A stretch of 64,000 nucleotides of DNA from Vigna angularis (lineage: Eukaryota > Streptophyta > Magnoliopsida > Fabales > Fabaceae): the NCBI RefSeq assembly GCF_016808095.1, contig NC_068971.1:17968501-18032500 (forward strand), written 5' to 3'. Positions 2,606 to 63,032 of the stretch are shown here, piece by piece (within the stretch, counting starts at the first letter, position 1; every line of letters begins with the position of its first letter). Position numbers and translations under genes: made by a program. A model generated the notes under the pieces. The model ran no database searches. It was not told the origin of the DNA and saw nothing but the letters and a program-made list of their open reading frames with translations.

Positions 2606-3158
2606 GCTTGGCTCCTTTTTGCTTTGTTCAGTTGTGTAATTATGGCAGGTCACCTGTATTACGAGGCAAACATGATCGTATTTCCAGTTTAAAGAAAGTA
2701 TGTGTTCATACCTTGTAAGGAGGACCGGTGGGTTCAACATGCTCGGATGAGAATGGTTGTTCCCGGAGAGCACTTGTGAGGTCGAATGTCCAAATTAATG
2801 GGAGGCCGAATGGTCGAGTGCATGCTGTAGCCGGACGACCGAGAGTTAAGTCCTGATGGCCGAACGCTATGTGAGGCCGGATGGACGAGTGCATGTTGAG
2901 GTCAGTTGGACGAGCGCTCTTTGAGCCGTAAGGACGAGCGCTATTGGAAGCTGGCCCAAACGGTCGGTCGATGAGGCCGAATGGACCAGCGCTCTTTGAA
3001 GCCTAATTGACGAGCGCTCTTTGAAACCGAACGGACGAGCGCTCGCTGAGGGCGGATAGACGAGCGCTCTTTGATCCATGATGGACGAGACTTTCAGTCT
3101 TGACCTCCGGGAGTGGAGTTGGAATGGCCGGGAGTTGTGGCCGGATGACCACATGCTG

Positions 3159-3420
3159 GATGCCAAATTTGGCTAAGTACCTAAGGCCGAATGGCCGAGT
3201 GGTAGAAATATAATCGTACCTTGGAGGCCAAATGGCCGGACGGCAGTTGAGGTCGAATGACCGGGAGTGTGTTGAGGCCGGACGACCGAGAGTTGAGGCC
3301 TGATGGCCGGGAGGTGAAGCCGGACGTTCGGATGTTGGATGCCAAATTTGGCTAAGTACCTAAGGCCGAATGGCCGAGTGGTAGAAGTATAACGTACCTT
3401 GAGGCCAAATGGCCGGGTGA
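3159..3420. repeat. Tandem duplication of ~175 bp in R0
   Basis: The block starting GATGCCAAATTTGGCTAAGT at 3159 recurs at 3334 with its following GGCCGAATGGCCGAGTGGTAG segment. It is a two-copy duplication between arrays 2 and 3. Confidence 0.75.
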
Positions 3421-3591
3421 TCCCAAATTTGGTTAAGGTGATGCCAGACTGCCGAGAGCTTACTAAGGCCGAAAGGTCGAGAGCACGAGGCTGGACGACC
3501 GTTCTGAGGTTGAACGGCCAGGAAATCAGGCCGGGCGACCGAGATTTGCGTAAATGTTTATGAAGCCGAGTGCAAAAAGCTGAAGGGCCGG

Positions 3592-18669: not shown

Positions 18670-19973
18670 TGATGGACAAATTTATGAGCACCAAAATATG
18701 ATGTCACAAACTTGTTTTTCAATCGGCAAGTATGACCGAATCGTTCAAGTAATAAACTTGGTAAGACCAAGTATCGTTCTTCCCAAAGGACTCACGGCCT
18801 AGTTTAGTTATGTGATTTCTTGATTAGCTAAGACTTAAAGACGAAATATTTGAAGTTTAATATGCAAGACAGAAAATAAACATGTATGCATGAAGTTTTG
18901 ATCAATGGCTAAAACAAAAGACACACACTTTCAATGGAATATATTAATGAATATGTTGTTGGGGGTCAATTTCATCTTATCCACTCTCATATATTTTAGG
19001 AATTCAACATTCAAATCATCATTGTTAATGCCACTCTCTAAAGTACCTTTCTAGAAGGCTTCTCCCCAATCACGAGTTCATACAATTCCTAGCATTCCTA
19101 ATGATCAGTTCATAAGTGCAGGAGCTTAACGACAACCAATATCATATTGGGAGAAATTCCCCGGATCTAGACTTCCCCGTACGTTCCCGTATCGACAAAA
19201 CCAATAATCATGCATCGAATGAGTTAAACAATGCAAGCATTAAGCAAAGAGGAAAAACCCTAACTAATGATGAAAGAAAGCATAAATCTTAATTAAAAGA
19301 TGTAACAAACAGATTCCATATATGAGAGCTTCATAAGATTACATTGATTCCCCAACAAACATACAAGGTTTAGTTCACCATATTCATGGTGAACCTAGAT
19401 GAATTACAATGAAAGAATGAAAGAATAAACCCTAAAAAGGTGAAGAGGTAGCCTGAGCATCCAAGATCCTCCTTCAAAGGGGTGGAAGAGAGAGTGTTTG
19501 CCTCGTTTCTGCCAAAGATGCCTAACCCTAGGAAACCCTAAAGCTTATATATCATTCGTAAATTACAAAAAGTCAAGTCCAAGCCCATTAAAGTGCCGCT
19601 CAGCGGTAAAATACCGCTCAGCGGTGAGTGCGTGACTTTGTTTTCTCCCCTCAGCGGCCATTTCACCCCTCAGCGGAGCCAGCGTGATTGCCTGAGTGCC
19701 GCTCAACGGTAAATTGCCGCTGAGCGGCAGTTGCGGCTTCTCTTTTTGCACTTTTTGATGTCTTATCTGATTTCATCTCTCTCCTTCTTCACTTCTTTCA
19801 CCAAATTCACCTTAAAACCTGCACAAAAACACTGAAATCAAGCATAAACCTGTCCAGCTCTCTTATTTCTGAAAATATTGGTAAAAGCATGATTTCAAGC
19901 TAGTTTCTAAGTGTAAAGGTTGCTTTTAGTGTCAATTTTAAGCATGAAAATAACAATTTTTCAACTGTTATCA
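18670..19973 (-). repeat. E1 3' LTR
   Basis: On the minus strand it starts TGATAACAGTTG... (here TGATAACAATTG is the decayed form at 19973) and ends TCCATCA. A TATA box lies at 19543-19551 and a cluster of CCGCTNAGCGG palindromes at 19592-19735. The adjacent 19974-19990 (CAACCCCAAACTTAGAA on plus) is the polypurine tract read on minus. Confidence 0.9.
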
Positions 19974-21218: not shown

Positions 21219-21244
21219 GATAGCATTCATCAGTAAATGCTATC
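21219..21244 (-). other. Solitary covarying hairpin just after the E1 ORF stop
   Basis: GATAGCATT (21219-21227), loop CATCAGTA (21228-21235), AATGCTATC (21236-21244): a perfect 9-bp stem with the same loop as the hairpin cassette, but with a different closing pair. It lies 12 bp beyond the ORF stop codon on the minus strand. Confidence 0.8.
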
Positions 21245-21255
21245 TCAGCTCATCA

Positions 21256-22515
21256 TCAGTCTGAGCTGTCCTCTGTATCTTCTTCTTCCTCCTCATCTTC
21301 ATCATCTTCAAATGCATCCTCCTCATCAGCTTCATCTTCTTCCATATCTCTAGCTGAAGCTTCAGCTGCTCCAGCTCCTCCTCCATGCACTGGTTCTTCT
21401 GGCCAAGCTACTACATTATGGAATTCATCCATAGTCCACCTGTGGGCTGGAGGTGTATCATACATCCCCACTATCATCTCAGCAGTGACCACCTGCCCTC
21501 TGTGAATGGACTGCAACTGAGCACCTATAAGAGACATATACATGTCCCTCATCTGGAATGGTTCTGCTTCATGTGTCTCAGCAGATGTCTGGCTCTGTGC
21601 TGGCCCTCTCTCTCTGCGAGCACGGCGTGGTGGAACTGGCTGAGCAGCATCCTCACCTCCACAGTACTGTCTGTAATAGGCCTCATCAATAGCTTTTCTT
21701 GGCCTCTCAAATGGTGGAACAGAAGTATCCACCCCAGCTAGCTTGCAAAGGTGAGTAATCAAAGAAGGATGTCCTAGTGGTGCTTTGTTGTTTGAGGTGT
21801 TAGCACATACACTAATTTCATCAGCTATCACCTGCCCAATATTAACATTTAAATTTCTGATAGCACAGTAGATGAATAGTGCCCTGCTGAGAGTAATATC
21901 TGACACATGTGAACATGGCTGAATGTTGGCATGAGAAAATGCCATCCAATACTTTGCAAGAGGAGTCAAATCCGTCCTCCTAATGTTAACCACTGAGCCA
22001 GATCTATTTCTTTGGAAGTGTCCTCCAGGTATACACAACACTCTCTCCACATCCTCATAATCAGCACCTTCCTCCATGCAAAGAGCAAACTGGCATTGCT
22101 CACCAGCCCACACAGTATCCAGGAAGTTGTTGATAGAATCAGGATCATACCTGATAGCATGGCCTCTGACATAGCCCAAATAATTCTCAGCTGGATAATC
22201 ACCAATCTTCTTTGCATTGGTGTAAAATTCCTTTACTACAGCTATGTTGGCAGGTGCAGGATAAGTGGCTAGCTTTCCCCAATCATTCCCTAACACTTGC
22301 TCTCCAAATTGAGGAGCAAAGTTAGGTATCATTCCAACCTTTCTCTCCATCAGAAGTCTCCTGTCCTGAACCACCCTAAAGTGCTTCTCATGTTTCCTAG
22401 AGAGGAACCTGCTAGATTGGGGTTGCTCTGGTTCCTTTTCCTTTCTCTTGGTTGCCATGGTTTTCAATCTCTTTCCTGAAGAGGATGCCATTCCTACATA
22501 TAAATACACAACCAT
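21256..22515 (-). CDS. Retroelement ORF, plant transposon protein domain (env-like position), 419 aa
   Basis: An intact frame between the hairpin cassette and the 3' LTR, the place where Athila/Calypso elements carry their third ORF. The start at 22515 is used because it is the longest; an equally good Met-Ala start lies nine codons on. Residues about 45-190 (RRLLMERKVGMIPNF, VKEFYTNAKK, YVRGHAIRYD, GEQCQFALCMEE) resemble the widespread putative plant transposon protein domain (Pfam Transposase_32-like; my recollection). No transmembrane segment or signal peptide is evident, so it does not look like an envelope protein. The last ~35 residues are almost all Asp/Glu. Function unknown. It stays open while gag in the same element is broken, which is odd. 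A related fragment lies at 26133-26434. Confidence 0.75.
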   Translation of the reverse strand: MVVYLYVGMASSSGKRLKTMATKRKEKEPEQPQSSRFLSRKHEKHFRVVQDRRLLMERKVGMIPNFAPQFGEQVLGNDWGKLATYPAPANIAVVKEFYTNAKKIGDYPAENYLGYVRGHAIRYDPDSINNFLDTVWAGEQCQFALCMEEGADYEDVERVLCIPGGHFQRNRSGSVVNIRRTDLTPLAKYWMAFSHANIQPCSHVSDITLSRALFIYCAIRNLNVNIGQVIADEISVCANTSNNKAPLGHPSLITHLCKLAGVDTSVPPFERPRKAIDEAYYRQYCGGEDAAQPVPPRRARRERGPAQSQTSAETHEAEPFQMRDMYMSLIGAQLQSIHRGQVVTAEMIVGMYDTPPAHRWTMDEFHNVVAWPEEPVHGGGAGAAEASARDMEEDEADEEDAFEDDEDEEEEEDTEDSSD

Positions 22516-23364
22516 AGAACATGATGTTAATCATTAGTAAAACATAGAACACAACTCCTTTCGATGATAAACCACCGCTGAGGGCCAGAATTTCCCCTCA
22601 GCGCCACCAGTGCCATAGTCCAAATCACAAAAAACCAAAAATACCAAATCTGGCAGAGTGCCGCTCAGCGGTAGTTTTACCCCTCAGCGGTAACTCTGCA
22701 GATTTTTGAAAATCTTGTTTTAAAACTTTCCTAACTCCACCCAAATGCAATTTTCAGTTTTCCAGTTCATAATCATGCAGTTTAATCGGTTCAAACATCA
22801 ACTATATCATCAAATCATGCATAGAAATCAAAACCCCTAAATATTCATGCTTTGACAATCATATTCAAATTCAAGAACCCTAGAATGAACAAAATGCTTT
22901 TTACTTACTTGGGTGGAGATACTAGATGCAATGAGAATGCTTCCAAGCTAGAATGCTCTCTTCCAACCCCAAACTTTGATGGCACACTAGTGAAAAAGTG
23001 AGTGGAAGAGATATTTTCTTAAGAGGAAAGAGTGAAAAGATGTGGAAAACCTAGGAGAAGGTGTGTGGAAGTGTTTGTGCAGAGAAAAGCCTGGAAAGAA
23101 ACCCTAAAATGTAGCTTGGGGTATAAAAATACCCTAATGGGCTCGGGTCCCGCTAAGGGGAACTAAAGCCCATTCTGCGCGAGTACCGCTCAGCGGTAAG
23201 TTACCGCTCAGCGGCACTTTCGTGATGTGCTCTTCTCCTTCTTTTCTTAACCTACGTGCCTCCTAACATGTTCCTCATTGGTTCCCTGCAATTCAATGTT
23301 TGAAAATGCTTATGCAAACCCTATTATGCAACTAAAACAAACAAAAAGAAACATTCAATCAACT

Positions 23365-23412
23365 GGGTTGCCTCCCAGGTAGCGCTTGTTTAACGTCACG
23401 AGCCTGACCCAA
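23365..23412 (-). other. Module B (structured element) of E1
   Basis: Read on minus: GTCA-GGCTCG-TGAC hairpin, GTTAAACAAGCGCT, then CTGGG-AGGCAA-CCCAG hairpin. Nearly the same sequence occurs at 62985-63032 in E5 and at 30647-30700 in E2. Confidence 0.8.
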
Positions 23413-23420
23413 AATCCACC

Positions 23421-23561
23421 AACACCCATCAGTAGGTGTAACAAACTTACCAACACCTATCAGTAGGTGCAAAATTTTCTTACCAACACCCATCAGTAGG
23501 TGTTACAAACTGAGTATCCTTCAGTAGATACTTAACCACCTAGCATCCTTCAGTAGATGCT
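23421..23561 (-). repeat. Hairpin array of E1 (five units)
   Basis: Five units at 23421, 23452, 23485, 23513 and 23542. Each has a 6-nt arm, an 8-nt loop CATCAGTA, TATCAGTA or CTTCAGTA (plus strand), and a complementary arm. Stem arms change together: AACACC/GGTGTT at 23485, AGTATC/GATACT at 23513, AGCATC/GATGCT at 23542. The units at 23421 and 23452 keep 5 and 4 pairs. Confidence 0.85.
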
Positions 23562-23642
23562 ATATCCAACAAAATATTTACAAAAATAATGTCCACAGAT
23601 TAAAAGTTACAAAACCAAAATCAAAATCAAAAGTTTTTAAAT

Positions 23643-23693
23643 CACTGGGTTGCCTCCCAGCAAGCGCTCTTTTAACGTCATTAGCTTGACCCA
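23643..23693 (-). other. Module A (structured element) of E1
   Basis: Read on minus: GTCAAGCTAATGACG, TTAAAAGAGCGCTTG, then CTGGG-AGGCAA-CCCAG hairpin. It lies inside and just after the end of the gag-derived frame, exactly where protease/pol would be expected to start. Confidence 0.8.
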
Positions 23694-24530
23694 GTAAAGC
23701 TCAAGTTCCTTCTTCTTTTTCTTCTTCTTTCTACTGAACTTCTTTAGAAATTTAATCAAACCAGGAACCTGTTGCAGTGTCTCAATCATAGGAACTTTAA
23801 TCTCCAATTTCTTGAAGATTTCCATAAAGCACTTAAATTTCTTTTCCTTCCTATGATTCTTCTTTAGATGAGGATGGGATTTTTCATATGATTCCTTCTT
23901 CTTTCCTCTCATCTTCTTTTTCTTACGCTTTCTCTCCCCAAATTTTCTCTTTTTCTTTTCTTTTATTTTTTTCTTCCCTTCTCTTTTTCTCCTCAACTTC
24001 TTTATTTTCACACAAATTTTATTTCTCTCTTCTCTCTCAACCACTTCTTTTTCTTTTTCTTCATCTTTATCTTTCTCACTCAACTCTTCTTTCTCTTTTC
24101 TCTCTACCCTTTCCTCATCTCCCTCTAATTTTCCCTCATCAAGAATCTTGTCACTTTCAGTGATAATGCCTTGCCCTTCCTCCTTAAGGTTAACTTCAGT
24201 ATTAACGTCATCATTCAATCTCTGATTGATGTAACGAAGTTGCATCTCCATTCTTTTACATGATTCTTCAATGCTTTTCTGAGTAGAGTCGGAATTTTTC
24301 AAAAATCGTTGAAGGGTGTCCTCCAACCTATCCAAACTTCCTGATAGAAAGGGTTGTTGCTGTCATTGTTGTTGTGGTTGGTTCTCAAATTGTCCAGCAG
24401 CTTGCCAAAATTGGCTTTGATCCATGCTTGAGTGAGGTTCCCACCAGTGGTTGAGATTACTTTGGTAGAATTGAGTGCCCATATGGTTAAATTCTTAACC
24501 AAATTGCATTCTGCAGACATTAGGCACAAA
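23694..24530 (-). pseudogene. E1 gag remnant (C-terminal half only)
   Basis: Starting near 24515 on minus the frame reads MQFG*EFNHMGTQFYQSNLN and, after a second stop, continues into DRLEDTLQRFLKNSDSTQKS, then a long Lys/Glu tract, then FKCFMEIFKKLEIKVPMIET and a Lys-rich end. This matches the part of Athila-type Gag between the zinc knuckle and protease. The Retrotrans_gag domain and zinc knuckle are missing: the leader joins directly to this part. E3 has the same truncation. Two in-frame stops make it non-functional as a full Gag; the 3' piece (from 24335) is still open for about 230 codons. Confidence 0.75.
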
Positions 24531-24828: not shown

Positions 24829-26132
24829 TGATGGACAATTTTATGAGCAGCAAAATATGATGTCACAAACTTGTTTTTCAATCGGCAAGTATGACCGAAT
24901 CGTTCAAGTAATAAACTTGGTAAGAGCAAGTATCGTTCTTCCCAAAGGACTCACGGCCTAGTTTAGTTATGTGATTTCTTGATTAGCTAAGACTTAAAGA
25001 CGAAATATTTGAAGTTTAATATGCAAGACAGAAAATAAACATGTATGCATGAAGTTTTGATCAATGGCTAAAACAAAAGACACACACTTTCAATGGAATA
25101 TATTAATGAATATGTTGTTGGGGGTCAATTTCATCTTATCCACTCTCATATATTTTAGGAATTCAACATTCAAATCATCATTGTTAATGCCACTCTCTAA
25201 AGTACCTTTCTAGAAGGCTTCTCCCTAATCACGAGTTCATACAATTCCTAGCATTCCTAATGATCAATTCATAAGTGCAGGAGCTTAACGACAACCAATA
25301 TCATATTGGGAGAAATTCCCCGGATCTAGACTTCCCCGTACGTTCCCGTATCGACAAAACCAATAATCATGCATCGAATGAGTTAAACAATGCAAGCATT
25401 AAGCAAAGAGGAAAAACCCTAACTAATGATGAAAGAAAGCATAAATCTTAATTAAAAGATGTAACAAACAGATTCCATATATGAGAGCTTCATAAGATTA
25501 CATTGATTCCCCAACAAACATACAAGGTTTAGTTCACCATATTCATGGTGAACCTAGATGAATTACAATGAAAGAATGAAAGAATAAACCCTAAAAAGGT
25601 GAAGAGGTAGCCTGAGCATCCAAGATCCTCCTTCAAAGGGGTGGAAGAGAGAGTGTTTGCCTCGTTTCTGCCAAAGATGCCTAACCCTAGGAAACCCTAA
25701 AGCTTATATATCATTCGTAAATTACAAAAAGTCAAGTCCAAGACCATTAAAGTGCCGCTCAGCGGTAAAATACCGCTCAGCGGTGAGTGCGTGACTTTGT
25801 TTTCTCCCCTCAGCGGCCATTTCACCCCTCAGCGGAGCCAGCGTGACTGCCTGAGTGCCGCTCAGCGGTAAACTGCCGCTGAGCGGCAGTTGCGGCTTCT
25901 CTTTTTGCACTTTTTGATGTCTTATCTGATTTCATCTCTCTCCTTCTTCACTTCTTTCACCAAATTCACCTTAAAACCTGCACAAAAACACTGAAATCAA
26001 GCATAAACCTGTCCAGCTCTCTTATTTCTGAAAATATTGGTAAAAGCATGATTTCAAGCTAGTTTCTAAGTGTAAAGGTTGCTTTTAGTGTCAATTTTAA
26101 GCATGAAAATAACAGTTTTTCAACTGTTATCA
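24829..26132 (-). repeat. E1 5' LTR
   Basis: 1304 bp, same length as the 3' copy. TATA box at 25704-25710 (minus). Palindromes CCGCTCAGCGG/CCGCTGAGCGG at 25752-25892. It starts TGATAACAGTTGAAAAACTG on minus, a 9-bp-stem hairpin, and ends TCCATCA. Confidence 0.9.
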
Positions 26133-26435
26133 TCCTCCCCCATGGCTAGAGCAAACTGACACTGCTCTCCTGACCATTCAACACCAAGAAAATTGTTAAT
26201 TGTAGCAGCATCATAAGGTATTCTTCTCCCTCTCACATAGCTTGTATAATCCTCATAACTACCACCAAAAGATCTTGCATTGGTATAAAACTCCTTCACC
26301 ATAGTTATATTAGCAGGTGATGGATAAGAAGCCAAGTTCTCCCACTGCCATCTTTCCATTTCTCTTCCAAATTCAGGTGCCATGGTGGGTATTAGTCCCA
26401 CCTTTCTCTCCATCAATAGCCTCCTATTCTGCACC
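26133..26435 (-). pseudogene. Fragment of the env-position retroelement ORF
   Basis: Reads RRLLMERKVGLIPTMAPEF, VKEFYTNARS, YVRGRRIPYDA and GEQCQFALAMGED, clearly homologous to residues ~45-150 of the E1 ORF at 21256-22515 but diverged. It is squeezed between the E1 5' LTR and the E2 3' LTR, with both its ends missing. Probably a relic of an older element (E0) into which E1 and E2 landed, or the product of an exchange between elements. Confidence 0.8.
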
Positions 26436-27848
26436 TGATAAATAAATTTTTAATCCCAAAAAACGGAGTCAAAAACTTGTTAAGACCTCGGCAAGTGTAC
26501 CGAATCGTATCAAGTAATAATAAATGGTATGACCAAGTATCGTTTCCCAAGAGAGTCACGACACGAAACAATTATGTGATTACTCAACTAATTAAGACTC
26601 TAAAGAACAAATTTTGGGGTTTTTGGATGCAAATGCAATAAAATAAACATGAAAGCAATTTGATCAATTGAGGCTAAACACAAGAATGAATGGATGAAGT
26701 TGATGATATTGTTGTTGGGTTTAGATTTCACCTAATTTACTCTCATGCATATATGAATTCATCTTCTTCATTAATGTTAATTCCACTTTCTAATTTACCT
26801 TAAACCCGATGTCTCGGTGAAGAAAGCCTACTCCTAATTACTAGTTCACAATGTCTTGTCTCCCTAGCAATTAATCATGCATTACATTCGCACAGAAGCT
26901 TAAAGGTAACCAACCCTCATATCCTAAGTCTAGGCAATACTACTTTTGGGAGAATTTCCTCAGATCTAGATTTCCCCGTATGTGTCCATATCGACAAAAT
27001 CAATGATCATGCAATTGAATGAGTTAAACAAAGCATGCATAGAGTGTAGACGAAAAACCCTAACAATTAATGAAGTAAAGCATATATAATAAAGAATCAA
27101 TTCAATACATGAGAGTTTAAGAGGTTACATCTTTCCCAAAAACAAATAAGGTTTAGTTCTCCGTCGTCATGGAAGAACTAGATGAGCAATGGAATGAAAA
27201 AATGGAAGAGATAGAAAATCGTAGAAAGAGAAGAGGAGAGCCATCACCATCTCCAAATCTACCCCCAAGGGGTGAAAAATGTGTTTCTATGCTCAAGCCA
27301 TCAAAAGATACAAAACCTAGGACGTGCAAGTCCTTAAATAGAACATAAAAATAACATAAAACAAGTCCAAGCCCATAAGAATAACAGAAAATAGGTCCAA
27401 GCCCACTTAAATTGGCGCTCAGCGGAATTTGGCGCTCAGCGGTGATTTTAGCACTTCAAAAATGCCGCTCAACAGTAATTACCGCTCAGCGCAACTTTTT
27501 CTGTACTCTGGTTGACTTTTCTGCATTTTAGTTGACTATTTGACTTTTTTGGTTGACTGGTTGACTTTTCTGGTTGACTTGTTGACTTTTCTGGTTGACT
27601 GGTCGACTGTTCTAGTTTTTGATTGACTTTTCTGCATTCCAACCATTCGGTACTTTAACTCTTCTTTCAAATCAATCCAATAACCTACAAAATCAACGGA
27701 ATCTAGCACAAAACCATTAAATTCACGTTCAACTCTCTTATTCACAAAACTAAAGCAAAAACATGAGTTAAAGCAAGTTTCTAAGTCAAAAAGGGTTGAT
27801 TGATTATCAAAATTAAGTATAAAAATAACGGTTTTTCAACCGTTATCA
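26436..27848 (-). repeat. E2 3' LTR
   Basis: 1413 bp. On minus it starts with a hairpin ATAACGGTT/AACCGTTAT and ends TTTATCA. Its last ~45 bases (minus) contain a decayed primer-binding-site copy (TTTTTGACTCCGTTTT). GGCGCTCAGCGG-type motifs at 27413-27500, next to a GGTTGACTT/GTTGACTGG repeat (27505-27630). Confidence 0.85.
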
Positions 27849-30402: not shown

Positions 30403-30910
30403 AGCATCCATCAGTAGATGCTCTCATCTGAATCTTCCAGCATCCATCAGTAGATGCGAATCCTTATCATCAACATCCATCAGTAGATGCTAATCTTTCT
30501 CATCTTCATCGGCATCCATCAGTAGATGCCTTTAGTAGCATCCATTAGTAGACCCTATCATTCATCACTCTCATCATGGCAGCATCCATCAATAGATGTT
30601 GTCAATCCTGCAAAGTAAATTCAAATCCAAAAGAAAAAGTCAGAAATTGGGTTGCCTCCCAAAAAGCGCTTATTTAACATCACGAGCCTGACCCAAAATC
30701 CTCCAGCATCCTTCAGTGGACGCATATCTTTATCACCAACACCCATCAGTAGGTGCATACAAACATAGTATCCTTCAGTAGATACTCTTAATCACCTAGC
30801 ATCCACCAGTAGATGTTAATCCTTTTCATGAACACTCATCAGTAAGTGTCTGATAGCATAGTATCCTTCAGTAGATACTCAATCCCCTGGCATCCATCAG
30901 TAGATGTTGT
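30403..30910 (-). repeat. E2 hairpin array with module B
   Basis: Thirteen units from 30403 to 30908 plus module B at 30647-30700. Perfect stems include AGCATC/GATGCT (30403), GGCATC/GATGCC (30511), AGTATC/GATACT (30767 and 30860) and ACACT/AGTGT (30832). Module B has changed CTGGG/CCCAG to TTGGG/CCCAA, again paired. No module A is seen in E2. Confidence 0.85.
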
Positions 30911-44585: not shown

Positions 44586-47229
44586 TGATGAGTCAATATT
44601 TTCTTGACTTCACTTAGTTTAGTGTGCTAGAATTAATCAGAGAATTGTGCTTAAATGTCCGGTATTTTTCCGTTTTTGCTAATTGTGCTTAATTTGACAA
44701 AAAATTCTTATTTTAATTAATTTGAATTATTTTAGCTAATTATTTTGCATTATTAATTGTTGAAAAATTGTTGGATAATATTTTGGGACTTCAAGAGAAA
44801 TGTGACATCAATTTTGTTTAAGTAAAATGAGAGGAGGTGTGGATTTCATTTTTGGGGGTGCACATAGAGATGGCACACGTGAAAGAAGTGCTGAAGCACA
44901 TGGCCCACGGCAATTGAACTTTGGAGGTCCAGCAATTTCGGAGAGAAGGGTGCTGGATGGGAAGGTGACCAGCTGCACACGGAGATGGGCTGGACTTCAC
45001 GCCCTCCATGCTGCACTCCACGCACATAATCAACTTTTGATTTGGACTTTCCAACAGCTTAAAGAAAGAACACTGGTAGCAGGCTGAAGCACGCTGGATG
45101 GGAGGAGAAAAGTGGGCTGGTCTACGTGAAGTCCAGCAGCTTCCAACAACACGCGTGAAGCAGTGGGCCCATAAGAAAGCTTGGGAGGTGTCATGGCATA
45201 ATGTGCTGGATGAATGAAGGGGTGCCGGTCCAACAAGCATTACCATCTGGCCCCCAGTGGCAGCAGCGCGTGTGCACAAGAAGCACAACAGTGTCCAGAA
45301 ATCCAGCGTCCAAGCAGCTCACGGTCTTGCATGGGAGAAGAGAGCCCAATGATGATTAGAAGTGAAGGTGTTGAACGTCCATGTGCACGAGAAGCATCCA
45401 ACAACCTTGGTCTAGCAGGCATCCAGCAGCGTGGGTGGCAAAAGAAGAAGCTGGTCCAGCACACTCCACACCCACGGTCCAGCAAGTAGCTCCAGCAATT
45501 TGAATTGGGGAGCGTCCAGCCTTCACACATTCACGGCTTGGCAGTAGCACTCCACATAAAGGAAGCTCACGGCCCAAAGGAAGGAACAACACGCTGGGAG
45601 GTAAATGGTCACGGTCCAGCAGCGTCCAGCACACATGAAGGAGGTGCTTGGAGAAGAAAGGAGAGCCTTCATTCATTAGGAGGTACAACAACAATAAGCA
45701 GTAGCAGATGAAGAAGCTTGGATGGGCTGCATGTCTAGGAGCATCTCGGTCCAACAGCAGTGTCCAGGAGGTGAACTCGGTAATGAATCTGGAAGCACGG
45801 CCTGCACAGTCCAGCAGAAGCTGTTGCACGTGGACTCAAATGAATGTGGTGTGTGCTGGATGAATGAGGGGTGCACGTGAAGCAGCTCATTCGCTCTTCA
45901 ATGGACAGCAGCAGCGGAGCCCAATGACTAGGAAGTAGGGCGGCTTCACGCGGAGAATGGGAAGCACAGGGGGTGTGTCCAGCAAGCAACCCAGCAGAGC
46001 AGCACGGGAAAGCGGGGGATTCACTTCTTGATTTTAAGGGCACATGAGTGATGGGAGAAGGGGAGTGAGCAGCCACCCACGGGGGGTCTCTCTCGGTTTT
46101 TCTATTCCAGCAGCACCAGGGATTTGGTTTTTTTTCTTTCTTTAGGGAAATACGGTAATTCATTCGTTTGGAAGAGGAAAGCTGTCACGTAACTAGGGAA
46201 TAGCCAAAAGGTTTTCTTTTGATATATTGTATTCATGCTTGGATGGGTGTTGAAGTACAAAAAGTGAAAGAGCTGCTGGTTGGGAAATTAATTTCATTGA
46301 ATCATCATTCACGTTTTTCAATGTTCATAATTACTTTTCTTAGTACCTTGTTGCCGTGGTGAATGTGTGGTGATTTTAATTTTCTTTAGCTAAACATTGC
46401 ATTTTCCATTTGCTATTGAGCTTTGTCCTTGCTACACGGTGCATTTAAATTGATTCCAGCTGGGAGGTTGTTCATTTTCCACTCGCATTTTCCATTTGCT
46501 ATTGAGATTTGACGCTGATTTTATTTTAGAGGAGAATGTTCATTGTGATTTCAAGAAAGAATGAAGCACTATTACATTTGTTTATTTGGAGAAAAGGAAT
46601 TTATCTTTGCTTGAGAAGGGGTTCTCCAAGAGGTGTTTGCTTTTTACTTCTTTACGCATGAACCAAGTGTTGTCTTTATATTCTATATATATTAGAATGA
46701 ATTCAGGTAGAAGCGGCTCACTCATCTTATTTTATTTTACTATTACGAGTTATTGCATTTCATTTATTAGCTAAAGATACATCTTCTTTTCCAGGCTGCA
46801 ATGTGATTCCGTTATTAGCCAAGCGTATTTTTTATTATTACTGTTGCACTGTGTGCATTTATTGTATACATTTAATGTTTTAGCTTAAGTGTTGCATTTG
46901 AATAACACCAAATGTGTCTTTATTATCGGTTACATTTTAATTAGTTCACACATCTTGTTTTAGAACCGTTCGGCCATATGTAGGACCGTTCGGTCTTCGT
47001 ACTTTGTTCATTTATTTCAGTGTTTTCAATTATGTTTAGTTGTATTTAATTTCCAGTTTTAATTTAGTTCATTTCTAATCACAAAAACACTTTCAAACCC
47101 CGCACTACGTGTTTGTCCTAAGACCCGAACCACATTTGGTCCTTGAGAGACGACCTAGGAGTCACTTCCTAGCACTATACTACATTAATATTTGCAATCA
47201 AATTTGATGGGCCGCGACAGCCCGCATCA
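44586..47229 (+). repeat. E4 LTR (full, 2644 bp)
   Basis: TG...CA ends; preceded by AAGTGTGGTCTATTT (polypurine-like). The middle 1.1 kb is crowded with TCCAGCA/TGCTGGA words in both orientations. Near the end are ACCGTTCGGCC and ACCGTTCGGTC (46966-46997). Confidence 0.65.
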
Positions 47230-47704
47230 TCAAGCTAGTGACGTTAAAGAAGCGCTTGCTGGGATGCAACCCAATTTTTGATTTTTTATTTTGTTTTTTA
47301 TTTAGTTGTGTGGTGTGGATTTGATTTTGTTTTGCAGTACTGACAGCATCTGCTGATGGATGCTGGACAACATCTACTGAGGGATGCTAAGAGGATTCAG
47401 ATAACAACATCTACTGATGGATGCTGCTACGATGAATGATAGCAAATTTTTCTGAACTTTTCATTTTAGTTTATTTAATTGTGTGGTTTTGATTTGATTT
47501 TTTTTTTCTTTGTGTCTTTGAGTTTTTTTTTTCTTTTAGGTTAAATGCTGCTTCTGATGGTAGTAATGATAGCATCTACTGATGGATGCTTCTACAACAT
47601 CTATTGATGGATGTTACTGACAACATCTACTGATTGATGCTATGATGATGAAGATGGTGTCAAGCTAGTGGCGTTAAAGAAGCGCTTACTGTGAGGTAAC
47701 CCAG
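47230..47704 (+). other. E3 hairpin cassette (two A-type modules plus hairpins)
   Basis: A-type modules at 47230-47274 and 47659-47704. Between them hairpin units at 47345, 47369, 47406, 47571, 47596 and ~47630. Perfect stems AGCATC/GATGCT (47345, 47571) and AACATC/GATGTT (47596). The second module has lost its CTGGG/CCCAG pairing. Confidence 0.8.
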
Positions 47705-57179: not shown

Positions 57180-57725
57180 AAGGTTTAATACGTATTTTGG
57201 TCCCTCTTTTCGTAGGGTCTGTTCAAATTGGTCCTACTTTTTTTCAAAAGTTCACTAAGATCCCACTTTTCGCAAAATCGATGCACGTTAGTCCTTTTTT
57301 AGGTTTAATACGTGTTTTGGTCCCTCTTTTCGTAGGGTCTGTTCAAATTGGTCCTACTTTTTTTCAAAAGTTTCCTATTTTGATCCCTATTTTGATCCCT
57401 CTTAGTGAACTTTTCGTATTTTGGTGAGCTGTACATTTTGATCCCTCAAAAGTTCACCTCAACGAAAAATGTACAGCTCACCAAAATACGAAAAGTTCAC
57501 TAAGAGGGATCAAAATAGGGATCAAAATAGGGAACTTTTGAAAAAAAGTAGGACCAATTTGAACAGACCCTACGAAAAGAGAGACCAAAACACGTATTAA
57601 ACCTAAAAAAGGACTAACGTGCATCGTTTTTGTGAAAAGTGGGATCTTAGTGAACTTTTGAAAAAAAGTAGGACCAATTTGAACAGACCCTACGAAAAGA
57701 GGGACCAAAATACGTATTAAACCTT
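57180..57725. mobile_element. 545-bp foldback (hairpin) element
   Basis: The left half (57180-57440) is repeated as its reverse complement in 57463-57725 with few differences; the loop is centred near 57452. Each arm contains two direct copies of a ~72-bp unit starting GGTTTAATACGTATTTTGGT, 120 bp apart. The two mirror-image open frames are by-products. GGTTTAATACG...GGTCCCT ends are common in legume MITEs. No clean target duplication identified. Confidence 0.85.
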
Positions 57726-60669: not shown

Positions 60670-61120
60670 CTCGTGGTTTAACTAGTTCATTTGTGTGATT
60701 ATTGATTATCTTTGACTTGAATTTTGAATTTTGAATTTCTGTTTTTTTTTCTGTTTATATTTTTCAATTATTATTATATTTTATTTTATTTTTCTATTTT
60801 TATTTTTATTTTATTTTATTTTTCTGTTTTTATTTTTATTTTATTTTATTTTCTGTTTTTTCGGTTTTTATTTTATTTTATTTTATTTTCTGTTTTTATT
60901 TTATTTTATTTTATTTTTTGTTTTTATTTTATTTTTTGTTTTTATTTTTCTGTTTTTTGTTTTTATTCTATCTTCTTATCTCTTATATTATTTCTTCTAT
61001 ATCTTTTTGTGCTAACAAATTTTTCTAGGGACTTGTTTTCGTGTGTATGCAAGAGGCAATCCGAACTAGAAACAAGAAAACGAAGAGGTTCCGAAGTTTT
61101 CTTACCATAGCACTGAGGAG

Positions 61121-62540
61121 ATGGAGAATAATAATGTCAAACAGACTCTTGCTGATTATACTAATGTGGTAGGACCTCGGCATTTCAATAGCATAGCAAG
61201 ACCGAGGGTCAATGCAGCTAATATGGAGGTGAAACCAGCATTAATCCAACTGGTGAAGAGTAACCAATTTAATGGGTTGTCGCATGAAAGCCCATATGAG
61301 CACCTCACAACATTTAATGAAATTTGCAATACAGTGAAGATAAATGGGGTGCCTGACGAAGCAATCAAACTTAGCCTGTTTCCATTCTCATTAGGAGGCA
61401 ACGCTAAGTTTTGGTTGAACTCTTTTCCAGAAGGGAGCTTTACAGAGTGGGAAGATGTGGTGACAAAGTTCTTGAACAAATACTTCCCATAATCCAAGGT
61501 AAACAAAGGAAAGCAAGAGATCTCATCTTTTAGGCAAGGCATGGAGGAATCGCTAGGTCATGCATGAGACAGATACAAAAGCCTATTAAGAAAGACTCCC
61601 ACACATGGATTTGACGAAGTAGAAGTAGTCCTAATCTTCCTTTGAGGTCTTGGTTCACAAACCAAGATGATGCTTGACGCCTCAGCTGGAGGCAATATCA
61701 AATGGAAGACTCCCGAGGAAGCCACGGAAATAACTGAAAACATGGCTACTAATGATAATGAGCTGAACAGTGAAAGAGGAGCTCCTATTCAACAAAAAGG
61801 AGTTCTACAGTTGTAATCCAATGATGTCTTGCTAGCTCAGAACAAGATACTAACTCAACAATTGGAGAATCTCACAAAGATACTTGCACAACTGCCAAAA
61901 GAGTTAAAGATTGTTGCACAGGTTCAACCATAGATGTGTGAATTATGTGGTGGTGACCATATCAATGGTCAATGCGCCTTTCCAGTGGAAGCTTTAGAGG
62001 ATGTTGACTTCATGGCCAATCAATTTCCATACTATCAGGGGAACCTCAATCAAGGGTGGAAACCACACCCAAGTATTGGTCAAGGACAAAGTGGGCAAGC
62101 TGGATAATAAGGGAAATTTCACAAGCAACAACAACAACCAACCTTATGGCAACAAATGTCTACACTTAATGAAAGATCAATAAGGATGGAAGGAACTCTT
62201 CAGCAATTCATACAAGCAACTGAATCCACTCAAAAGAGCACTGAAGCTGCTATTAAGAACTTAGAGATTCAAATGGGTCAAATTACTAAGCAGTTGGAAG
62301 AAAGGACTGACAAGAATTGTAGGGCTAATACTGAGGTTAACCCCAGGGAAGAGTGTAAAGTGCTAGTGAATGTAAATGTTGAAAAAGTTGAGTTGGAAAA
62401 AGAAGAGAGAAAAGAGAGAGAATAGAAAGAAGAAGAGAAAATTTGTGTGAAGATTAAGAAAGTGAGTAAGAAAAGAAAACAAAAAAAGAAAGTGAGAGAA
62501 AAGAGAAAGAGGACGAGAGGAAGAGAGAGAATCATATGAA
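61121..62540 (+). pseudogene. E5 gag pseudogene (Athila-type, Retrotrans_gag domain)
   Basis: 61121-61492 is open for 123 codons (QTLADYTNVVGPRHFNSIAR, then ALIQLVKSNQFNGLSHESPY, LSLFPFSLGGNAKFWLNSFP), the Retrotrans_gag capsid domain. A stop after KYFP (61490) is followed by readable sequence with more stops and shifts. At 61933 a knuckle-like MCELCGGDHINGQC has Athila spacing C-x2-C-x3-H-x4-C. LNERSIRMEGTLQQFIQATE and a Lys/Glu-rich tail follow. Gag would form the particle that packages element RNA; this copy is dead. E5 keeps the capsid domain that E1 and E3 have lost. Confidence 0.85.
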
Positions 62541-62728: not shown

Positions 62729-63032
62729 GGTCAAGCTAGTGACGTTAAAAGAGCGCTTGCTGGGAGGCAACCCAGTGATTTAAGAGCTTTTAGTTTTTTT
62801 TTGGTGATGTAATTTTGAACTTTTGGGTATTTTTGTTTTTGTTATAAGTTTGTTACAGGTTTTACATCTACTGATGGATGTTAGGCAGAAGAGTATCTAC
62901 TGAAGGATACTATGTTTGTATACACCTACTGATGGGTGTTGGTAAGAAAGATTTGCATCTACTAAAGGGTGCTGGAGGATTTTGGGTCAGGCTCGTGTTG
63001 TTAAACAAGCGCTACCTGGGAGGCAACCCAGT
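62729..63032 (+). other. E5 hairpin cassette: module A, hairpins, module B
   Basis: Module A 62729-62775; hairpins ACATC/GATGT (62864), AGTATC/GATACT (62892), ACACC/GGTGT (62922) and a decayed one (~62955); module B 62985-63032. Same order as E1 in element sense. It begins immediately after the stop codon that ends the gag-derived frame. Confidence 0.85.

Follow-up and report, generated by a model that had tools for sequence, protein, structure and literature searches.

Arrays of a short hairpin with a near-fixed loop in Athila-like, apparently pol-less retrotransposons of Vigna angularis

Sireviruses, which are Ty1/copia elements, carry RM boxes, short multi-copy palindromes of family-specific sequence that are clustered upstream of an env-like gene. 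In 12 of the 13 elements listed, the core of the RM boxes is CGG-CCG with its halves only a few bases apart; the boxes are also found in LTRs (PMC2829016). Elements that contain LTRs, gag, and env-like ORFs, but no pol, have been described for Athila in Arabidopsis (PMC2410132) and Calypso in soybean (PMC1142308); their insertions are recent, and they are presumed to be mobilised in trans. Family-specific internal arrays of plant gypsy elements are exemplified by Retand, where tandem repeats are located between pol and the 3' LTR (PMC11963269). In Ty1, cis-acting stem-loops are involved in RNA packaging and dimerisation, and are needed for the helper-mediated mobilisation of mini-elements (PMC5454406).

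The window analysed here, a 64,000-nt stretch of V. angularis DNA, is dense in LTR elements, four of which (E1, E2, E3, and E5) contain arrays of a short hairpin. Judged by their sequences, the array-bearing elements appear to be Athila/Calypso-like members of Ty3/gypsy: E5 gag matched a gypsy-type Gag domain, and in E1, the gag-like ORF is followed by a plant-type env-like ORF, as it is after gag(-pol) in Athila and Calypso. The coding features and LTRs were as follows.

24829..26132, minus strand: 5' LTR of E1 (BLAST; boundaries placed by eye)
23637..24362, minus strand: gag C-terminal-like ORF of E1 (similarity to the E5 gag region; no Pfam match)
21256..22530, minus strand: env-like ORF of E1, 424 aa, stop to stop (PF20167, E 3.4e-67)
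18670..19973, minus strand: 3' LTR of E1 (BLAST; boundaries placed by eye)
61070-61492, plus strand: gag ORF of E5 (PF03732, E 7e-6)

The internal order of E1, in element sense, was the gag C-terminal-like ORF, a conserved motif designated M, five hairpins, another copy of M, and the env-like ORF. A polypurine-like tract was present, and TGGCGCCGTTGCCGGGGA, located ca. 6 nt past the LTR, is a candidate primer-binding site, putatively of the tRNA-Asp type. In Calypso, the primer-binding site is complementary to tRNA-Asp and lies a few bases past the 5' LTR (PMC1142308). The two LTRs of E1 were 99.16% identical over a 1308-base BLAST match, which indicates recent mobility. Only 1.1 kb separates the end of the gag-like ORF (23637) from the start of the env-like ORF (22530), too short a gap for pol, and none of the 12 longer window ORFs run against Pfam matched reverse transcriptase. 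E1 thus appears to be a copy that moved recently and kept the array while pol was missing. The gag core (PF03732) was not found in E1, whose ORF matched the later part of E5 gag. No target-site duplication was seen at the flanks of E1 (agtaagt vs. tcctcc, at 18670 and 26132), and E1 may therefore be a recombinant; it abuts part of a different element, an env-like fragment at 26120-26449 (PF20167). The E1 env-like ORF had 339 homologues; the 120 listed were all named V. angularis, and several of those were at least 96% identical to the E1 query over part or most of its length.

In E5 (plus strand), gag, M, four hairpins, and M were followed by the end of the window, with gag running directly into M. 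When five window proteins were used as tblastn queries, E2 produced no match to gag or env, while E3 matched gag only and not env; the arrays, to judge from these searches, occur in elements differing in coding remains. The initial annotation had placed the arrays at the pol position of a gypsy family, which holds for E1 with its 1.1-kb gap and is likely for E5, but does not extend to E2, where neither gag nor env was found, or to E3, where only gag was. LTR parts of E2 matched each other at ~77%; E2 looks old, and its array would be evidence of persistence rather than activity. Elsewhere in the window, positions 57180-57725 contained a large inverted repeat with 260-nt arms, 98% complementary and 26 nt apart.

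Each hairpin unit comprised ~6-bp arms around a near-fixed loop, TACTGATG or TACTGAAG. A relaxed scan returned 42 rows: 28 units, a lone unit beyond env, and 13 rows that were dropped as overlapping, off-register, or decayed (one in E1, three in E2, eight in E3, including the decayed 47546, and one in E5). The 28 units, 23 of them distinct, were distributed among E1, E2, E3, and E5 as 5, 13, 6, and 4, which reproduces the numbers given in the initial annotation. The E1 array was likewise found where it had been reported, as five minus-strand units (23561 to 23421) with a copy of M on each side.

23645..23693, minus strand: motif M, upstream copy, E1
23542..23561, minus strand: E1 unit 1, AGCATC-TACTGAAG-GATGCT, 7-bp stem (scan)
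23513..23532, minus strand: E1 unit 2, AGTATC-TACTGAAG-GATACT (scan)
23485..23504, minus strand: E1 unit 3, AACACC-TACTGATG-GGTGTT (scan)
23452..23471, minus strand: E1 unit 4, TGCACC-TACTGATA-GGTGTT, imperfect (scan)
23421..23440, minus strand: E1 unit 5, TACACC-TACTGATG-GGTGTT, open outer pair (scan)
23363..23411, minus strand: motif M, downstream copy, E1
21219..21244, minus strand: lone unit of E1 directly past the env-like stop codon, perfect 9-bp stem GATAGCATT/AATGCTATC around TACTGATG
24189..24206, minus strand: GTTAA-TACTGAAG-TTAAC, 5-bp stem within the E1 gag-like ORF (same-loop search)
30403..30908, minus strand: E2 array, seven units, motif M (~30695-30647), six units
47345..47641, plus strand: E3 array, six units in two clusters, M on each side (~47229-47274, ~47659-47704)
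62863..62973, plus strand: E5 array, four units, M on each side (~62730-62775, ~62983-63031)

The stem could be divided into a 4-bp core (pairs 3-6), in which 108/112 cells were Watson-Crick and CATC/GATG, TATC/GATA, and CACC/GGTG were the commonest forms, and two loose outer pairs (37/56). Thus, of the 6-nt arm and 8-nt loop described initially, the near-fixed loop stands, but only the 4-bp core of the arm is firm. Exact loop octamers were present 22 times on the two strands of the window, and 20 of them had a stem of at least four Watson-Crick pairs; all 20 were in element sense, the search being one for exact loops, which leaves inexact inverted loops out of this count. Four octamers lay outside the arrays, and two of these had a stem (0.01 in 100 dinucleotide shuffles), both in E1 and in element sense; the hairpin at 24189..24206 may be coincidental. 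A crude count of any inverted repeat of at least 6 bp with a loop of at most 10, over 1.2-1.5 kb, was above shuffles in E1 (9, shuffled maximum 8), and showed no excess in E2 (6, maximum 7), E3 (5, maximum 8), or E5 (5, maximum 8). No Rfam family matched anywhere in the window at the gathering score. An IMG/VR search with a two-unit pattern returned two stretches, one with a tandem repeat whose exact octamers had no matching arms (L003) and the other with no exact octamer (L002).

A function as a repeated peptide was rejected, since in each of the four array regions no frame was free of stops, and the units were in differing frames. An ORF across the E5 array had two relatives (P0122 and P0123), in which unit order and M were kept at the protein level, and two gene models among the 120 env homologues listed contained YLLMDT, which corresponds to the other loop combined with a T-A pair 3.

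Motif M, to which each array was tied, is ~49 nt long and is made up of a GTCA-N6-TGAC stem, an AGCGCT palindrome, and a CTGGG-AGGCAA-CCCAG stem. In an alignment of eight copies (seven from the window and one from stretch L001), AGCGCT was invariant. RNAalifold predicted two stems with nine pairs and a compensated change in one; five of the pairs were disrupted in one copy or in two, and the contribution of covariation was slightly unfavourable (+0.22). L001 was the only stretch returned by a GTDB contig search for M, and belongs to a Burkholderia symbiont assembly; it is probably host-plant DNA, and hence M would not be limited to beans. Its 8000 bases contained no TACTGAWG octamers. After M, L001 had different palindromes, of the GATCGCCGGCGGCGATC type, and a hairpin bearing TATA (3086-3135 and 3376-3490), and its inverted repeats numbered six, compared with a shuffled mean of 1.3 and maximum of 4. 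A pattern search for M in IMG/VR returned nothing. We found no described name for M: GGGAGGCAACCCA was absent from the open-licence literature, and literature matches to four overlapping M substrings looked, among the matches listed, unrelated by title.

A different palindrome, CGCTNAGCG, was present 25 times in the window (mean 0.02 in 50 dinucleotide shuffles), 20 times in LTR-like segments and five times between motif M and env. In the E1 LTRs, these palindromes preceded TATATAAG by ~50-175 nt. They fit the architecture of Sirevirus RM boxes better than the TACTGA units do, here in gypsy elements (PMC2829016). A polypurine-tract-like sequence, AAGTTTGGGGTTG, was found six times, and multiple polypurine tracts have also been described in Sireviruses (PMC2829016). 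The sites below include some of the 25 CGCTNAGCG palindromes and all six copies of AAGTTTGGGGTTG.

19597, 19615, 19718, 25756, 25774, 25859, 25877: CGCTNAGCG in the E1 LTRs
22662, 23187, 23205: CGCTNAGCG upstream of env
63197, 63215: CGCTNAGCG in E5
19974, 27849, minus strand: AAGTTTGGGGTTG at the 3' LTRs of E1 and E2
22964, minus strand, and 63441, plus strand: AAGTTTGGGGTTG before env in E1 and E5
20619, minus strand, and 48260, plus strand: further copies of AAGTTTGGGGTTG

The segment 23238-23036 (minus strand), which is ~200 nt long and lies upstream of the env-like ORF in E1, aligned to the LTR promoter region (~325-500 of the E1 LTR, with palindromes, a TATA-like sequence, and TTTAGGGTTTC). 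The score was 68 with the E1 LTR (shuffled maximum 40), and 53 and 52 with the E5 and E2 LTRs (37 and 43, respectively), while the E5 counterpart aligned to LTRs weakly or not at all (44, 38, and 41 vs. 41, 44, and 44). This resemblance of the region upstream of env to the LTR promoter region suggests a putative internal promoter for env.

The initial annotation had presented paired changes in the arms as the main evidence for structure. The arm pairs that it listed exist, but much of their variety is in the loose outer pairs, and events in the core are few. Among the 168 pair cells of the 28 units, 145 were Watson-Crick, 7 G.U, 7 A.C, and 9 other, the expectation for independent columns being 122 Watson-Crick, 19 G.U, and 18 A.C. 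Change on both sides was seen in five of the six pairs (23 distinct units), a number reached by 0/500 shuffles and, under a tree-aware null with a mean of 1.5 such pairs, by 1/2000 runs; slid registers produced at most one. Pairs 5-16 and 3-18 were the two top-scoring column pairs of all. No per-pair E-value was below 0.05, with 0.53 for pair 5, 0.64 for pair 3, and more than 10 for the other four, and the number of further pair types was unremarkable (69/500 shuffles reached the observed value). Pair 1 showed no covariation (18/28 Watson-Crick vs. ~17 expected from column counts), and pair 2 was not significant (Fisher P 0.11). Parsimony placed a single double change in pairs 1, 3, and 6 each, while that of pair 5 was split. 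In the core, covariation comes down to some three double changes, in pairs 3, 5, and 6, which are inherited with unit types, so the support from compensatory change is thinner than had been claimed. The statement that compensatory change marks selection was also too strong, since template switching can yield such changes: in RNA genes, it is reported to make and maintain stems, with multibase compensatory changes (PMC8794818).

Divergence was compared in a unit-by-unit alignment of the E1 array, the last four units of the E2 upstream half, and the E5 array. Pairwise differences, which were counted with two mixed cells set aside and which come from three-way pairwise comparisons and so are not independent, numbered 6/96 in the core, 10/96 in the loop, 15/157 in M, 10/46 in the outer pairs, and 34/133 in the spacers. 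Compared with the spacers, Fisher P values were 3.5e-5 for core and loop together, 9e-5 for the core, 0.004 for the loop, 0.0005 for M, and 0.69 for the outer two pairs, which drift at the spacer rate. What is conserved thus appears to be a 16-nt core, and not the 20-nt hairpin. The lower divergence of core and loop than of spacers is firmer ground for selection than covariation. Because of this difference, and because hairpins with the same loop are found elsewhere in E1, selection is favoured; selected secondary structure, as proposed in the initial annotation, is the better-supported reading, though on the basis of conservation and not of covariation.

The predicted stability of the 28 hairpins averaged -6.4 kcal/mol in sense and -4.5 kcal/mol in antisense orientation. 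The sense strand folds better because a U.G pair, often joined by an A-U pair, reduces its loop to a CUGA tetraloop; the U.G closing pair was also added by RNAalifold. The 4/112 exceptions in the core pairs were three G.U and one G.G, with no A.C. Overall, G.U and A.C were equal (7 vs. 7), and RNA is therefore not separated from DNA by this count. The whole E1 region folded no better than shuffles in sense orientation (z -1.15) and better than shuffles in antisense (z -5.10). Array-only folds were mixed (z -1.7 to -5.3 in sense, -1.2 to -5.1 in antisense), with sense favoured in E5 and in each half of E2, and antisense in the other three (E1, E3a, and E3b).

We propose, tentatively and with a probability of roughly 0.4, that the units are a repeated cis-acting stem-loop, most likely acting as RNA, which serves for protein docking in packaging or nuclear export. 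The units are repeated, paired, and conserved in core and loop, and occupy a position that leaves no room for pol in an element with a recent LTR pair, E1. The stem-loop would consist of the 4-bp core stem and an 8-nt loop, UACUGAUG or UACUGAAG, U.G and A-U closure of which would leave a CUGA tetraloop in sense RNA, and its copies would have multiplied beside the two-stem M in Athila-like elements that lack pol and sometimes more. The hairpins would provide multiple docking sites for Gag or a host RNA-binding factor; the bound protein would mark the enzyme-less element for packaging or nuclear export, and the marked element would then be mobilised in trans. Action at the RNA level, binding of a protein, and a role in packaging or export are what we infer. 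A cis-acting site is the simplest reading because the core is conserved and repeated, is present singly elsewhere in E1, and is kept in a recently mobile copy that lacks pol and in an older one with no recognisable genes. Packaging or export is favoured because mobilisation in trans is assumed for the pol-less gag-env Athila elements of Arabidopsis, which have replicated for more than 2 million years (PMC2410132). In E2, the array of 13 units outlived the coding parts, and the lack of a gag or env match there favours a cis-acting site, while the age of E2 and the crude inverted-repeat control weigh against it. An open env-like ORF was retained in E1 as well, and retention in that element is thus not peculiar to the array. 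It is rather doubtful that the units go further and form a multi-copy RNA recognition code, in which hairpins with near-identical loops, repeated in the space of lost genes, would be high-avidity Gag or export sites that let pol-less elements compete for helper particles and, with M, would constitute a packaging/dimerisation region, the first to be mapped in the Athila lineage.

The strongest rival, somewhat unlikely in itself, is neutral upkeep, in which palindromes without a function multiply through tandem duplication, and mismatches are mended when the template is switched from one arm to the other during DNA replication or reverse transcription. Template switching is reported to make and maintain stems in RNA genes (PMC8794818), tandem duplication is visible as a 31-nt period in E1 and as repeated unit triplets in E2, and the independent double changes are few. 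Such upkeep accounts for pairing, but not for the quiet core and loop relative to the spacers, while 19/56 outer cells are not Watson-Crick; moreover, no inverted loop was seen, all 20 stem-bearing exact octamers being in element sense. Palindromic DNA boxes that bind a nuclear factor, a reading by analogy with Sireviruses, are improbable. There, apart from copies in the LTR, the motifs of env-bearing members lie almost only upstream of env (77/79 linker copies; PMC2829016), and the E1 array has a similar location; the G.U/A.C symmetry is also consistent with DNA. However, the Sirevirus-like distribution in the window belongs to CGCTNAGCG, the conserved 8-nt loop of the TACTGA units is unusual for a dyad DNA site, 0/20 stem-bearing exact loops fell within the listed LTR-like segments, and the arrays are kept in E2 and E3, where env is not recognisable. 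Least likely of all is control of splicing of an env subgenomic mRNA, with the loop UACUGAU as a branch-site-like sequence and U-rich AG tracts nearby. The plant branch site consensus is YUNAY. U-rich tracts ending in CAG are located between M and the hairpins in E2, E3, and E5, a predicted V. angularis gene model, P0117, spans gag-like sequence into the array translation, and a spliced env mRNA has been reported for barley Bagy2 (PMC7264820). Yet the TACTGAAG loops depart from the consensus, ~100 nt separate the last E5 unit from the U-rich AG that comes next, a branch site would be hidden in the stems, and in E1 no CAG immediately precedes the array.

The cis-acting stem-loop that we favour can be set against the systems described above. 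The bean units differ from RM boxes in their near-fixed 8-nt loop, their varying arms, and their presence in pol-less Ty3/gypsy elements; the TACTGA units have no CGG-CCG core, and none of their stem-bearing exact loops falls in the listed LTR-like segments. Palindromes are not mentioned in PMC2410132, nor hairpin arrays in the passages considered on Arabidopsis Athila and soybean Calypso, and the Retand paper makes no mention of hairpins and has palindromes only in its reference list (PMC11963269). The Ty1 hairpins are single and are located at the 5' end (PMC5454406), whereas those of the bean elements are many, lie further downstream, and have a putative function. Palindromic arrays before env in Sireviruses and tandem arrays in gypsy elements were already known; among the open-licence papers listed by literature searches, none described arrays of near-fixed-loop hairpins in an Athila-like element. 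To our knowledge, most cis-acting signals in the RNA of plant Ty3/gypsy elements have yet to be mapped. The unit, a short stem-loop that is easy to synthesise and is found in a pol-less element of recent mobility, is a candidate for the recruitment of helper proteins, and the system is suited to telling structural selection from upkeep by template switching.
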